A DNA stretch of 64,000 nucleotides, taken from contig NZ_WOXT01000004.1 in assembly GCF_009740395.1 (NCBI RefSeq), positions 62,001 through 126,000 on the forward strand. Direction: 5' to 3'. The first letter of the stretch is position 1; every line of letters starts with the position of its first letter. This DNA comes from Noviluteimonas gilva (GTDB taxonomy: Bacteria; Pseudomonadota; Gammaproteobacteria; Xanthomonadales; Xanthomonadaceae). A program made the position numbers and the translations under genes. Under the pieces are notes generated by a model. That model was not told the origin of the DNA and did not search any database. It saw only the letters and a list, made by a program, of their open reading frames with translations. Shown here piece by piece: positions 34,081 through 39,296 of this stretch.

Positions 34081-34950
34081 ATGCAACTCATCACCGCCCT
34101 CACCTACGTCCTGCCGCATCGGTTCGTGTCGTCGCTGGCGCGCAAGCTCGCGTATTCGACGAATCCGCGCACCAAGCAGTGGTTGATCGACACCGTCGTG
34201 CGCAAGTTCGACGTGAATTTGTCGGAAGCCATGGAGCCGGACGCGACGCGCTATCCGTCGTTCAATGCATTCTTCACCCGTGCGCTGCGCCCCGGCGCGC
34301 GCGTGCCCGATCCAGATCCGCGCGTGTTGACGATGCCGGCCGACGGCCGCATCAGCGAGTGCGGTCACATCGGGTTCGCGGGCGACGCGGAGCACGACGA
34401 TCCCGGGCACATTTTCCAGGCGAAGGGGCACGGGTTCAGCACCGCGCAGTTGCTCGGCGATGCGGAGAAGGCGAAGGCGTATGTCGGCGGGACGTTCGCG
34501 ACGGTGTATCTGTCGCCGCGCGATTATCACCGCGTGCACATGCCGTGGTCGGGGACGTTGGTGGAGACGGTGCATGTTCCGGGGCGGTTGTTCAGCGTCG
34601 GCGTGGATGCGGTCGGCAATGTGTCGCGGTTGTTTGCGCGCAACGAGCGCCTGGTCTGTCATTTCGAGACGGACTTCGGGCCGATGACCTTGGTGATGGT
34701 CGGGGCGCTGCTGGTTTCGGGTGTCGAAACGGTGTGGAGCGGTGTCGAGATTCCGCCCTACGGTGGGCCGATCGTGCGCAAGGACTGGCGCGGCAAGGGG
34801 GTCGTGTTGGAGCGGTTCGCCGAGATGGCGCGGTTCAACTACGGTTCGACGGTGATCGTGTTGTTGCCGAAGGGTGTTGCGGCGTTGGCGCCGACTTTGC
34901 GTGCGCAGGCGCCGGTGCAGTTGGGTGAGGCGTTCGCGACGTTGGTTTGA
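34081..34950 (+). CDS. psd: Phosphatidylserine decarboxylase proenzyme
   Basis: Makes phosphatidylethanolamine at the inner membrane after self-cleavage to a pyruvoyl enzyme. It has 289 residues. The cleavage motif is YGST with predicted cleavage between G255 and S256, in [12 protein letters not shown]. The proteolytic triad residues D88 (MPADGR) and H150 (RDYHRVHMP) are present. [15 protein letters not shown]-like sequence near residue 61 is typical. Shares a transcript with the SCO1/SenC gene. Confidence 0.96.
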
Positions 34951-34969
34951 AGGGGGTCCGCGGACGGGG

Positions 34970-35150
34970 CGTCGTTGTTTGTCGTGCGACTCCACCAGAT
35001 TGGCGCATCGGTACGCCGTACTGGATGTCCTTTTGCTACACGAAGAGCGAGCCACGCTCCGCAAAAGGACATCCAGCACGACGCACCGCTGCGCGCAGCG
35101 TCTGATCATTTCGCGACAGCACTTGGTGAATGGGTGCGTCGCTGGTTGCG
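34970..35150 (+). repeat. Palindromic repeat element, copy A
   Basis: A conserved 44-nt flank (34970-35013, beginning CGTCGTTGTTTG and containing CTCCACCAGA) is followed by a 23-bp inverted repeat (35014-35036 and 35061-35083) with a 24-nt loop. It then runs into a tail containing GGGTGCGTCGC. Copy B at 35791-35965 has the same layout in opposite orientation. The arms pair except at arm positions 3 and 7. No convincing gene covers it. Confidence 0.8.
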
Positions 35151-35280
35151 CGCTGCGCGCCAACTGCCAGCACTCCAGACGGACGGAACGTCGCCCACCT
35201 CGGCGCGCGCACCGTCGTGACTTCGTCGCCTCTGGCAGGCGACGTTCCTCGCGGCGATCTGATCGGAGAGCGGGGCCCCG

Positions 35281-35609
35281 CTACTCCAGTTGACGACGTT
35301 GCGGATTGAATCGAGTCGATTGGCGATGGAAGTTGCCTTCATCGCGGGCGGAGTCGAGCTCGACGGCGGTTGAACTGGGTCCGTCGCTGAGTGAATTGCG
35401 TGGGTTGACGACGGAACTCGGTGCATCGCCGATTGAACCGAGCGGGCTGGAAGTGGATCCAGGTTCCGTCGTCGAAGGACTGGCGTGCGTGGCTGAATGA
35501 CCTCAGCCCATCGCAGACTGCATCGCGTGCATTGGCGACGGAACACAGCCCACTACGCACGGAGTCAGCTGGGTTGGCGATGGAACGCAGCCCATTACGG
35601 ACCGAGTAG
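35281..35609. repeat. Degenerate tandem repeats of about 42 bp
   Basis: Units recognised by TTGGCGAYGGAA or TTGACGACGGAA at 35320, 35405, 35532 and 35574; the last two are exactly 42 bp apart and the others are near multiples (85, 127). The last units share AACRCAGCCCAYTACG. Short open frames show a 14-residue repeat, but no start, Shine-Dalgarno or codon bias supports a gene. 35151-35280 shows nothing recognisable. Confidence 0.6.
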
Positions 35610-35615
35610 TCCGGG

Positions 35616-35647
35616 TCCCCAACCCCTCTCCCGCAGGGAGAGGGGCG
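35616..35647. repeat. G/C hairpin repeat, inverted relative
   Basis: CCCCAACCCCTCTCCC-GCA-GGGAGAGGGG. It resembles the hairpins at 24309-24347 and 43175-43214 in reverse orientation, with the G-rich tract on the other side. Confidence 0.6.
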
Positions 35648-35674
35648 CCGCTTCACCCATCAAATCACCGCGAA

Positions 35675-35756
35675 GGCGCCGATGCCCGAGAGAGGACATC
35701 GAGGAGAGCGCGCGACCGGAGCTCGGCTCCGAGATGTCCTCGACGGGCAAGGCGCC
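35675..35756. repeat. Imperfect long palindrome
   Basis: Arms GGCGCC..TGCCCG...GAGGACAT (35675-35699) and its complement (35734-35756) enclose a second small palindrome CGGAGCTCGGCTCCG. Its arms are unrelated to those of elements A and B, except for the core GGACAT shared with A. Confidence 0.65.
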
Positions 35757-35790
35757 GCCCATCGGGTGTGCTGGCTGTACGCGCGCACCC

Positions 35791-35965
35791 ATCAACACGC
35801 GACGCACCCTTCATCAACCAGCTGTCGAGCAACCCGACGAATAGTGCGCAGCGGACGTCGCGTTGAAGGCCACATTGCGGAGCTTGAGCTCTTGCGGAGC
35901 AATGTGGCCTTCAATGCGGCGCGCCGCTGCGCCGGTCTGGTGGAGGCGCACCCCAAACAACGACG
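35791..35965 (-). repeat. Palindromic repeat element, copy B
   Basis: Minus-strand copy of the element at 34970. Its 44-nt flank (35922-35965) matches copy A at 36 positions. Arms are 35899-35921 and 35856-35878, and the tail again contains GGGTGCGTCGC. The arm sequence differs from copy A at eight of 23 positions, and every change is compensated on the partner arm. Confidence 0.8.
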
Positions 35966-36004
35966 ATGGTTCTGCGTACTGCACCTCAAGCTTTACCCCA
36001 CCCA

Positions 36005-36037
36005 AAAAGAAACCCGCCGGTGGCGGGTTTCTTTTTG
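36005..36037 (-). terminator. Strong terminator of the lytic transglycosylase gene (bidirectional form)
   Basis: AAAAAGAAACCCGCC-GGT-GGCGGGTTTCTTTTT, a long perfect stem with T-runs on both strands, 37 bp past the stop of the mltD-like gene. A further hairpin CCTCCCCTGGAGGGGAGG follows at 36041-36058. Confidence 0.9.
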
Positions 36038-36073
36038 ACCTCCCCTGGAGGGGAGGTAAGTGGCGCCTACCAA

Positions 36074-37612
36074 TCAATTCGCCGTGCAGCCTTCCAGGGT
36101 CAGCGTCTGCCCCGGGCGGATCGCGTAACGCGGCGCCTTGATGCGATTGGCTTCCGCGAGTTCCCGCATGTCGCAGGAGAACTTCTTGGAGATCGCCGTC
36201 AGCGTTTCGCCGCCGCGCACCTTGTACTTGCCGGCCTTCGCGGGCTTGGGCGTGTCGGCCGATGCGACGGGCGTCGGGCGCGGTGCGGTGGCCTCGGCGG
36301 TGGCGATGCTCGACACACCCCGCACGGCCGAAGCGGCGTCGCTCATGACCAACTGGTGCGCGAGGTCCGCACGCGGGCCCTGCGCGCAGTGACGACCGTA
36401 CAGACCGACGATCTTCGTCGTCGCGTTGAGCGTCGCACCGGCCGGCAGCCAGCTGTCGGCCTCGTAACGCGGATTGAGATTGCGCAAGGCGCGCATGTAA
36501 CCGTCGCGCGTGCCGCCGTTGCCCAGGCAGATCGTCAACTCGTAGATGGACGCCGCGCGCGTGAGCTTGAGCATCGCGGGCTTGGCTTCCACCTTCGGGA
36601 AGGTCAGGCCGTATTGCTTGGGATGCAGGAACAGCCACGCCGCCGCGATCACCATCGGCACGTAATCGCGCGTTTCGGCCGGGAACTGGTTGTAGACCGA
36701 CGCGTCCCAGAAGCCCTGCCCGTTCGCGCCGTTGTACACGCGCAGCGCGCGGCCTTCGCCGCCGTTGTAGGCCGCCAGCGCGAGCTCGATGCTGCGATTG
36801 AGCTGGCCCATGCGTTCGTTGAGGTAGGCGGCGCTGGCTTCGGCCGACGAACGCGCATCGAAGCGCGTGTCGAACCCGGTGCCGTCCGGCCCGAGGCCGA
36901 AGCGCTTGCCGGTGGCGTACATGAACTGCATCGGGCCCGCCGCGCCCGCGCGCGAGCTGACGTGCACCTTGCCGTTGGATTCCTTCGCCATGATGCCGAA
37001 CAGCAGCGCCTCGGGCAGGCCCGCGCGCTGGAACTCCGGCCACATCAGGTGACGCATGTACTGGTAATTCTCGTAGCTGCCGATCAGCGCCGGGCGCATG
37101 TCCGTCAACCACTTGCGGATGCCCGCCTGCACGGCGGGGTTGTACTGCACCATCTGGTCGAAGCGATGGTCGTCCGACAACAGTTGCGCGGCACGCGCGG
37201 CTTCCGGCACGTCGGCGGCGATCGCGGCGATGGCGTGATCGTCGTCCTCGTCGTCGGCGGCGACATCGTCCGCGGACTGCGCCTCGCCGTCGGCCTGCGA
37301 CTTCAACAGCCGCTTGTAGGTGGCGAGCATCGTCGGCACCGAGCAGCCCTTCTGCTGCATGCAGGCGGCGATGACGTCCTCCATGTCCTCCAGCGCGGCA
37401 TCGCTTTCCGCCGTGCCCGACGGATCGGCGTTGCCGATGCGCACCAGCGCCCCGCGATACCGCTGCTCGGCCGCCGCCATGCGCGTGTTCAACGCCTCGA
37501 CCGCGGCCTGGTCCTTCTTTGAGGCCGCATGCGCGGGCGAAACGACGGCGGCCAGCGCCAGCGTGGTGGCGAAGCAGAGTGCGGCGACGCGCGGCAAAAC
37601 CGAATCAGACAT
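36074..37612 (-). CDS. MltD-like membrane-bound lytic murein transglycosylase with LysM
   Basis: Exported peptidoglycan lytic transglycosylase, 512 residues. Signal peptide at residues 1-29 (LCFATTLALAAVVSPAHA). The SLT domain (about 190-350) has the catalytic E211 in GIMAKESNGKVHVSSRAGA and the motifs GPMQFMYATGKRFGL and ALAAYNGGEGRALRVYN. One LysM domain at the C terminus (about 460-508, YKVRGGETLTAISKKF) binds glycan. An acidic stretch (DDVAADDEDDDH, near residue 120) is unusual. ATG 37612; the frame is open upstream to 37990 but that part is antisense to the HerA-like gene. Confidence 0.9.
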   Translation of the reverse strand: MSDSVLPRVAALCFATTLALAAVVSPAHAASKKDQAAVEALNTRMAAAEQRYRGALVRIGNADPSGTAESDAALEDMEDVIAACMQQKGCSVPTMLATYKRLLKSQADGEAQSADDVAADDEDDDHAIAAIAADVPEAARAAQLLSDDHRFDQMVQYNPAVQAGIRKWLTDMRPALIGSYENYQYMRHLMWPEFQRAGLPEALLFGIMAKESNGKVHVSSRAGAAGPMQFMYATGKRFGLGPDGTGFDTRFDARSSAEASAAYLNERMGQLNRSIELALAAYNGGEGRALRVYNGANGQGFWDASVYNQFPAETRDYVPMVIAAAWLFLHPKQYGLTFPKVEAKPAMLKLTRAASIYELTICLGNGGTRDGYMRALRNLNPRYEADSWLPAGATLNATTKIVGLYGRHCAQGPRADLAHQLVMSDAASAVRGVSSIATAEATAPRPTPVASADTPKPAKAGKYKVRGGETLTAISKKFSCDMRELAEANRIKAPRYAIRPGQTLTLEGCTAN

Positions 37613-37738
37613 GCGAAAGGACACAAGTTGAGCGAAAGTCCGGGAGACGGTATCGGCGCACGTGCTGCACCGCAACCCATTTTTGCCGTGAAACTGCGGA
37701 CGCCATCGTGGATTGCCCTTGGATGGCCGACGCACGGC

Positions 37739-37744
37739 TATGAT
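37739..37744 (+). promoter_or_regulatory. -10 box upstream of the HerA-like gene
   Basis: TATGAT, with TTGCCC 20 bp upstream (long spacer). It gives a short leader of about 19 nt that contains AGG at a suitable distance from the ATG at 37770. Confidence 0.4.
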
Positions 37745-37769
37745 CGGCCGACACTGAACAGGCGCTTCC

Positions 37770-39296
37770 ATGGATCCCATCCTCGTCGGCAAGTCGGTCA
37801 CCACGCCCCAGGGCGGTCCGGTCACGCTGGAACCGAAGTACGGCAATCGCCACGGGCTCGTCGCCGGCGCGACCGGCACCGGCAAGACGGTGACGCTGAT
37901 GACGATCGCCGAAGGCTTCGCGCGCCTCGGCGTGCCCGTGTTCCTCGCCGACGTCAAAGGTGATGTCGCCGGACTCGCGGTCGCCGGCACGCCGGACCAG
38001 AAGGTGCTCGACCGCGCCGCGCAGATCGGTGTCGCGAACTACGCGCCCGCCGCGAACAACGTCATCTTCTGGGACCTCTACGGGAAACTCGGCCACCCGG
38101 TGCGCACGACCGTCAGCGAGATGGGCCCCACCCTGCTCGCGCGCATCCTGGAACTCAACGACACCCAATCGGGCGTGCTCGACATCGTCTTCAAGCTCGC
38201 CGACGACCGCGGCCTGCTGCTGCTCGATCTCGAAGACCTGCGCGCATTGCTCGGCGTCGTCGCCGACGAGCGCAAGGACATCTCGACGTCTTACGGCCTG
38301 GTCAGCGCGCAGTCGATCGGCGCGATCCAGCGCGCATTGCTGCGCCTGGAACAGGACGGCGCGGAACAATTCTTCGGCGAACCCGCGCTGGAACTGTCCG
38401 ACCTGATGCGCACCACGCCCGACGGCCGCGGCGTCATCGGCATCCTCGCCGCCGCGCAACTGGTGCTCAAGCCGCGCCTGTATTCGAGCTTCCTGTTGTG
38501 GCTGTTGTCGGAATTGTTCGAAACGCTGCCGGAAGTGGGCGACCTCGACAAACCGAAACTCGTCTTCGTCTTCGACGAAGCGCACCTGTTGTTCGACGAT
38601 GCGCCGCCTGCGTTGCAGCAGCGCGTCGAACAGGTCGTGCGGCTGATTCGTTCGAAAGGCGTGGGCGTGTACTTCTGTTCGCAGTTCCCCGACGACGTGC
38701 CCGACGAAATCCTCGGCCAGCTCGGCAACCGCGTGCAGCACGCGCTGCGTGCGTTCACGCCGCGCGACCAGAAGGCGGTGCGCACCGCCGCGGAAACCTT
38801 CGTCGCCAATCCCGATCTCGACGTGGGCAAGACGATCTCCGCGCTCGGCGTCGGCGAAGCGCTCGTCTCCACGCTGCACGACATCGACGGCGCACGCGCC
38901 GTGCCGATGCCGGTCGAACGCACGCTCATCGCGCCACCGCACTGCCGCATGGGCGCGATCACCGACGCCGAACGCGCGCAGGTGCGCGCCGGCAGCCCGG
39001 TCGGCGGGAAGTACGACACGTCGATCGATCGCGAATCGGCCGCCGAAAAACTCGCCACGCACGCACAGGCCGCCGCTGAACGCGCCGATGCGCCGAAAGC
39101 GAAGTCGCGCGAAGACGACGAACGCGAAGAACCCGGCGTCGGCCAGGCGGTCAAGGACGTCGTGTTCGGCACCAAGCGGCGACAGGGCATGGTGGAAACC
39201 ATGGCCAAGCAAACCGCGCGCACCGTCGGCAGCCGGATCGGCCAGCAGATCCTGCGCGGTGTTCTCGGCAGCATCTTCGGTGGCTCGCGCCGCTGA
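37770..39296 (+). CDS. HerA/FtsK-like ATPase, DUF853 (YjgR) family
   Basis: A 508-residue P-loop ATPase of the HerA-FtsK superfamily, the type of E. coli YjgR, whose role is not established. Walker A is GATGTGKTVTL at residues 33-43, Walker B LVFVFDEAHLLFDD around residue 270. ADVKGDVAGLAV and a sensor-like YFCSQFPDDVP are also family features. The C terminus is basic and amphipathic (KRRQGMVETMAKQTARTVG, ending FGGSRR). No nuclease gene (NurA, Sir2-HerA or similar) is adjacent, so an antiphage role is not suggested. It is followed by a lipoprotein gene on the same strand. Confidence 0.9.
   Translation: MDPILVGKSVTTPQGGPVTLEPKYGNRHGLVAGATGTGKTVTLMTIAEGFARLGVPVFLADVKGDVAGLAVAGTPDQKVLDRAAQIGVANYAPAANNVIFWDLYGKLGHPVRTTVSEMGPTLLARILELNDTQSGVLDIVFKLADDRGLLLLDLEDLRALLGVVADERKDISTSYGLVSAQSIGAIQRALLRLEQDGAEQFFGEPALELSDLMRTTPDGRGVIGILAAAQLVLKPRLYSSFLLWLLSELFETLPEVGDLDKPKLVFVFDEAHLLFDDAPPALQQRVEQVVRLIRSKGVGVYFCSQFPDDVPDEILGQLGNRVQHALRAFTPRDQKAVRTAAETFVANPDLDVGKTISALGVGEALVSTLHDIDGARAVPMPVERTLIAPPHCRMGAITDAERAQVRAGSPVGGKYDTSIDRESAAEKLATHAQAAAERADAPKAKSREDDEREEPGVGQAVKDVVFGTKRRQGMVETMAKQTARTVGSRIGQQILRGVLGSIFGGSRR

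Follow-up and report, generated by a model that had tools for sequence, protein, structure and literature searches.

In the present study, a pair of inverted palindromes lying between two convergent genes in a 64,000-nucleotide stretch of the Noviluteimonas gilva genome (hereafter the window) was found to belong to a family of large hairpin repeats, of which 73 copies were collected from three genomes of one genus (30 from N. gilva itself, 34 from G004 and nine from G001, these genome counts being lower bounds). Herein, we propose an explanation that we consider rather probable: the family consists of unusually large, REPIN-like, non-autonomous repeats that are multiplied as pairs, are recognised by their shape and have arms that are free to change. 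First, a half-element comprises a head (CCACCAG in the N. gilva genome) with a variable triplet after it, then hairpin 1 with its roughly 34 pairs, a tail and a second hairpin (hairpin 2). Second, two halves are joined with their heads outward into a pair; the elements are located mostly at the 3' ends of genes, and the pairs would have multiplied within the carrier genomes. Third, the acting factor may recognise the head together with the shape into which one strand folds, not the sequence of the arms, because the head is loosely conserved and G-U pairs are tolerated in a strand-specific manner; with recognition of this kind, the arms would be free to change, on both sides at once. Fourth, this two-sided change might at least sometimes arise through template switching, with one arm copied into the other. 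Once in place, the elements would probably supply the mRNAs on either side with hairpins at their 3' ends, a putative role.

The local arrangement in the window is as follows. The original prediction described two copies, A and B, with 44-nt flanks of which 36/44 bases are identical and 23-nt arms that differ at positions 6, 8, 11, 13, 15, 17, 18 and 19, and recomputation gave exactly these values, with the differences of the partner arms at exactly mirrored positions (8/8 compensated); the two imperfect pairs at arm positions 3 and 7, A-C as written and G-U on the opposite strand, were also reproduced. The extent of the element had to be revised: the 23-nt arms are present, but they are the inner portion of a stem of about 34 pairs in both copies (with heads, 34992-35094 in A and 35846-35943 in B), and inward of each stem lies a second hairpin (35185-35248 in A, 35675-35756 in B). 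The pair sits between psd (phosphatidylserine decarboxylase; 34081..34950, + strand; Pfam PF02666, E 1.1e-51), whose 3' end faces head A at 41 nt, and a convergent gene for a lytic transglycosylase with LysM (36074..37990, - strand, given as the longest ORF with an uncertain true start; Pfam SLT and LysM at 36077-37615), whose 3' end faces head B at 130 nt. Copy A, on the + strand, comprises the conserved 5' flank outside the head (34970..34991, the beginning of the 44-nt flank shared with copy B), the head CCACCAG followed by the variable triplet (34992..34998, exact pattern match), hairpin 1 of arm type 1 (TGGATGTCCTTTTGC; 35003..35094, inverted repeat I2) and hairpin 2 (GGAACGTCGCC ... GGCGACGTTCC; 35185..35248), which was read from the sequence and has similar modules in relatives. 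The centre of the pair (35249..35674, unstranded), a part read in the same way and variable in length among the N. gilva pairs, contains degenerate repeats and a CCCCTCTCCC palindrome (35623-35645); by eye, the repeats at 35280-35620 have a period of about 36 nt and are TTGGCGATGGAACGCAGCCCATTACGGACCGAGT-like. Copy B, on the - strand, comprises hairpin 2 (GGCGCC..GCCCG..GAGGACATC / GATGTCCTC..CGGGC..GGCGCC; 35675..35756, read from the sequence), which is of a different type from that of A and is also found after other N. gilva copies, hairpin 1 of arm type 2 (TTGAAGGCCACATTGC; 35846..35932, inverted repeat I4 and top covariance-model match) and the head CCACCAG (35937..35943, exact pattern match, CTGGTGG on the + strand). 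Between copy B and the transglycosylase gene lies a terminator-like palindrome (36003..36037, unstranded, inverted repeat I5, 100% complementary), an edge of which (TTTTTGGGTGGGG) occurs upstream of 11/30 N. gilva copies; a sub-threshold match to the Whalefall-1 RNA (35994-36059, - strand, 27.3 bits vs 37) covers a palindrome and terminator-like sequence. The flank pattern CCACCAGNNNGGCGCANCGGNNCGCCG has two matches in the window vs 0.01 expected, and both strands of both copies fold as RNA with z from -7.7 to -11.4 against dinucleotide shuffles, of which 0/200 were as stable, so that the copies are not a product of chance.

Sequence searches with both window copies, followed by alignment, yielded 30 intact hairpins in the N. 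gilva genome, seven of arm type 1 and 23 of type 2 or close variants, and both types have a common outer stem, common flanks and a common loop motif, GGAGCNT. Sixteen of these hairpins form eight inverted pairs and 14 are single; all eight pairs, each within 2 kb, are head-outward and measure about 450-1430 bp head to head. By hand count, 5/8 pairs mix both arm types, which seems no more than chance. Two defective copies were left out of all counts, C5:25398, which lacks the inner hairpin, and C6:2835, a fragment cut at the loop and in tandem with an intact copy. A weak covariance-model match at C5:135187-135329 (38.6 bits), outside the 30 counted, could be the decayed partner of the single copy C5:134863, about 230 bp inside of it. 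The widest N. gilva pair (C2:103153-103796) encloses two small overlapping ORFs, one of which was checked and has no Pfam match.

A DNA similarity search of 297 genomes of the bacterial family, with the best two candidates scored per genome, revealed no relatives, and nine single matches in an exact-pattern scan of contigs, all in unrelated taxa, were taken as chance. A covariance model built from the 30 N. gilva copies, with the best 13 candidates scored per genome, detected distant relatives in 2/4 same-genus genomes, and a second model, built on 15 diverse copies, identified at least 34 hairpins in G004 and at least nine in G001, both of the same genus as the window. This second search covered 40 genomes, as a rule scoring the best 102 of several thousand candidates in each, and among these best 102 no copy was seen in the genus-mates G002 and G003 or in the other 35 genomes. 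In a search of 395 genomes of the bacterial family, with the best ten candidates scored per genome, one weak match from another genus (G217, 45.9 bits) was a long palindrome without a head and was not counted as a member. Members were seen in one genus only. The G004 copies form 15 pairs, which measure 558-634 bp from end to end and are head-outward without exception (15/15), as well as four single halves, and the DNA enclosed by these pairs is a near-mirror set of hairpins; in G001, each half is joined to one from another palindromic family (by eye, six to one kind and three to another). Hairpin 1 with its head measures 92-115 nt across the 73 copies. The head is CCACCAG in 23/30 N. gilva copies and 3/34 G004 copies, with the variants CCACNAG in 26/34 G004 copies and CACCCAG in 6/9 G001 copies. 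An apical loop conserved throughout the family was ruled out, as GGAGCNT occurs in 29/30 N. gilva, 15/34 G004 and 0/9 G001 copies; the loop is common within subfamilies.

The arms differ at most positions across the three genomes (TTGATCCCTTTTC, GTGTGTGTCTTGG, CACAGTCTTTTCTGCCGC) yet pair throughout. In the alignment of 15 diverse copies (eight N. gilva, five G004 and two G001), 93.7% of cells pair vs 72.2% in shuffles, changes on both sides are seen in 24/34 pairs, and the score for covariation reaches 0.608 vs 0.210 (sd 0.018) in shuffles and at most 0.140 in slid controls; the shuffles ignore relatedness, so that these figures are not probabilities, while the slid controls retain it, and the register of the structure, having been picked on the same alignment, has an advantage over its slid versions. 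The score of the alignment of the 30 N. gilva copies is 0.228 vs 0.112 shuffled, and its nine two-sided pairs are not unusual, as 97/500 shuffles reach that count. The original prediction would have failed on an absence of further copies or on copies with uncompensated arms; compensated copies were found in the N. gilva genome and in 2/4 same-genus genomes.

In some near-identical copies, compensated changes occur in mirrored blocks. The right copy of locus L123 and the left copy of L116, both in G004, differ by twelve substitutions that amount to six base-pair exchanges, two of them C-G against G-C, and are otherwise identical outside the last 11 nt, and the left copies of L113 and L116 differ solely by three adjacent exchanged pairs; both are the most extreme cases in a list of 40 copy pairs that have members in common. 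Minimum-spanning trees of close copies have 55 short branches, along which both sides had changed in 14 pairs vs 2.6 expected, and 12/14 swap one Watson-Crick pair for another; only 12 such exchanges are available, four with transversions, and eight are reachable by two transitions via G-U. The mirrored blocks are what template switching across the hairpin would produce, and a block, once existing, could have spread by conversion between copies. Template switching has been described for RNA hairpins, where multibase compensatory changes result from a single copying event (Monttinen and Loytynoja 2022, PMC8794818, as far as its available text goes). The present case resembles those hairpins in this respect and differs from what that text describes in that the repeat is bacterial and dispersed and has many near-identical copies, from which candidate switch events can be read directly. 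In the evolution of RNA and DNA hairpins, it has long been puzzling that long stems keep their pairing as both sides change, and 73 copies in three genomes, including near-identical ones that differ only by mirrored blocks, could make the rates of templated and stepwise compensation measurable.

In addition, one strand of the element is kept foldable. In hairpin 1, the better-folding strand is the one that ends in the head's reverse complement (…CTGGTGG), both in all 30 N. gilva copies (30/30), which were found by sequence, and in all 43 others (43/43), which were found with folding-strand models that may favour copies folding on that strand. In the window, this is the - strand for copy A (-71.3 vs -53.7 kcal/mol) and the + strand for copy B (-68.8 vs -59.5 kcal/mol). 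The same strand folds better in 45/46 motif-located modules of hairpin 2 (46 of the 73 halves, the other 27 being without the search motif) and in 70/73 whole halves. Along the same 55 short branches, the one-sided changes in the stem, scored on the folding strand, were between Watson-Crick and G-U pairs in 52 cases and between Watson-Crick and A-C pairs in six (p 3e-10), and 42 additional one-sided changes involve mismatches and fit neither class. With pairs taken from the fold of the other strand, the counts are 49 vs 7. Unpaired sites on the folding strand show no matching mutational bias (C/T 6, A/G 14). This strand-specific tolerance of G-U argues for selection on the hairpin. It would be very surprising if all stem covariation came from the mechanics of mutation, that is, from template switching, with no selection on pairing: the mirrored multi-base blocks are what such a process would leave, but template switching makes perfect pairs and cannot alone yield the 52:6 strand bias, and the unpaired C/T changes do not exceed the A/G changes on the folding strand. 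Selection on the hairpin and templated correction of it had been offered as two readings of the covariation; the G-U tolerance bears out the former and the mirrored blocks the latter, and both are probably at work.

A structured RNA, which the original prediction had also offered, is possible, and in its fullest form this explanation appears unlikely without being far-fetched. The elements would be useful to the host: transcripts of convergent genes would cross the pair as far as its far half, the strand of which folds best, and end there, thereby gaining a stable 3' end and shielding the neighbouring gene from antisense transcription, and copies would have spread by duplication only. The layout agrees with this reading, as, with convergent neighbours, it is the opposite gene that reads the foldable strand of each half, and, with genes called by a simple codon-usage script, the 3' end of the neighbouring gene faces the head at 56/72 halves that have a called gene. 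Changes unique to one copy retain the G-U bias in weaker form (14 vs 4, p 0.03). On the other hand, the same strand folds best in 73/73 hairpins although the adjoining gene points away at 16/72 halves, and the genus-mates G002 and G003 are without a copy among their best 102 candidates. In the two window copies, the preferred strand is the same with RNA as with DNA energy parameters, so that RNA and single-stranded DNA are not told apart in this way. No Rfam family reached its cut-off over the element: at gathering score, the whole window contains two tRNAs only, and all 24 matches over 34900-36120 are below cut-off, with E up to 5. The lack of a promoter-like site in 34900-36100 carries little weight, as 0.1 was expected by chance.

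We prefer the explanation as REPIN-like repeats. Of the 72 heads, 56 face the 3' end of a gene and 16 do not; among the 56, the distance to the stop codon is 18 nt or less in 23/28 cases in G004, 6/23 in the N. gilva genome and 1/5 in G001. The gap between psd and mltD is 1.1 kb in N. gilva, is 54 bp and without the element in G004, and is occupied by other things in G001-G003. Conversely, the G004 pair L131 has an empty counterpart site in the N. gilva genome (L043), and another site is occupied in both N. gilva (C4:220308/220740) and G001 (L137), with different arms. From the species-specific copy sets and the empty site we infer mobility, with multiplication inside each carrier genome. No excision product was found, and no target-site duplication was evident in 23 pairs, where the mean shared word was 2.2 nt vs 2.1 in shuffles; L131 has one possible 5-nt repeat, 12 nt outside its right head. 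The search for a transposase that moves the copies, suggested in the original prediction, was carried out with Pfam profiles: the Y1 transposase profile (PF01797) has no match in the three carriers G000 (N. gilva), G001 and G004 (0/3), and is present in G003, one of the two genus-mates with no copy seen, and in 5/14 control genomes. The reverse transcriptase profile (PF00078) likewise gave 0/3 carriers, with one sub-cutoff match in G002 and matches in 3/14 control genomes. A more specific version of our explanation is that these mobile hairpins are recognised by the head and the shape of one strand, that they are multiplied by an enzyme class other than those searched for, and that single templated events rewrite several pairs of the arms, with stem covariation arising through mirror copying, after which selection on one strand acts as a filter; this version is held only tentatively, and we would not yet count on it.

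Of the kinds of element suggested at the outset, a REP/MITE-like repeat fits best, apart from the target-site duplication. In the text available for each source, REP dimers are head-outward inverted doublets located at gene 3' ends between convergent genes (PMC3733652), and REPINs are head-outward doublets for which compensatory changes in the hairpin are reported (PMC3116915). The present family resembles the REPINs and GTAG REPs of those texts and of the portion available of PMC8266576 in being palindromic, extragenic, present in many copies, arranged in head-outward doublets and located 3' of genes, as well as in strand-specific recognition of the hairpin and in compensatory hairpin changes. 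The differences are considerable: the head is CCACCAG-like, not GTAG, with GTAG/CTAC in the head-side 13 nt of 0/73 copies; the hairpins measure 92-115 nt in two tiers, as opposed to palindromes of 20-40 bp; the pairs are about 450-1430 bp; variation is concentrated in the stem next to the head; and Y1 transposase was not found in the carriers. Thus, true membership of the REP/RAYT system, with the transposase lost or overlooked, is improbable, despite the head-outward doublets at the 3' ends of convergent genes and the reported compensatory changes, in view of the absent GTAG/CTAC, the hairpin size and the restriction of PF01797 to G003 among these genomes; the family is REPIN-like in its working, not a REPIN member. 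As RAYT is the defining component of REPINs, a REPIN-like design where RAYT was not found suggests that such repeats can multiply by a different route. CGTC-tagged REPs are reported to form head-outward dimers without a dedicated transposase (PMC3733652, in its available text), whereas CGTC/GACG is found in the head-side 13 nt of only 24/73 present copies and the present hairpins are far larger. As in MITEs, which have terminal inverted repeats, the halves are inverted copies, but no target-site duplication was found.

Recombination sites that bound the segment between the copies, either attC-like or as an invertible switch, had also been envisaged. Integron attC sites have conserved outer boxes, variable complementary arms and a single-strand bias, with a core motif GTTRRRY. 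The present family is similar in kind in these three features; however, the GTTRRRY core occurs in the outer bases of only 4/73 copies, the pairs are inverted, and the enclosed DNA consists of near-mirror hairpins in G004 and varies in length in the N. gilva genome (pairs of about 450 to 1430 bp head to head). No support for an invertible segment was obtained, and this is the explanation to which we give the least credence. No name for the present repeat family was found in the literature searched, a search that left subscription journals mostly outside.

Several further features were observed in these genomes. In G001, the psd-mltD intergenic region (L065) holds a different large nested palindromic element, and halves of this kind, judged by eye, are attached to 6/9 G001 members of the present family. 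In G003, where no family copy was seen, that region (L063) contains a Y1 transposase gene between GGGGTCAGAGCAC-type inverted repeats. Another inverted palindrome family lies inside a G004 pair (L067:1140-1440), the arms of which, CCACCAAAAGAATCCCG and CCCATCAAAGCAATCCCG, seem to covary, and one copy of this palindrome is present at L128. In the left flank of L129 and the right flank of L113 in G004, the first 20-30 bases of the element are duplicated in short tandem arrangement immediately beyond the head, and the G004 locus L118 (C1:299147-299246) is a single hairpin bordered on each side by a head-like sequence, which gives the impression of a complete pair collapsed into one hairpin.
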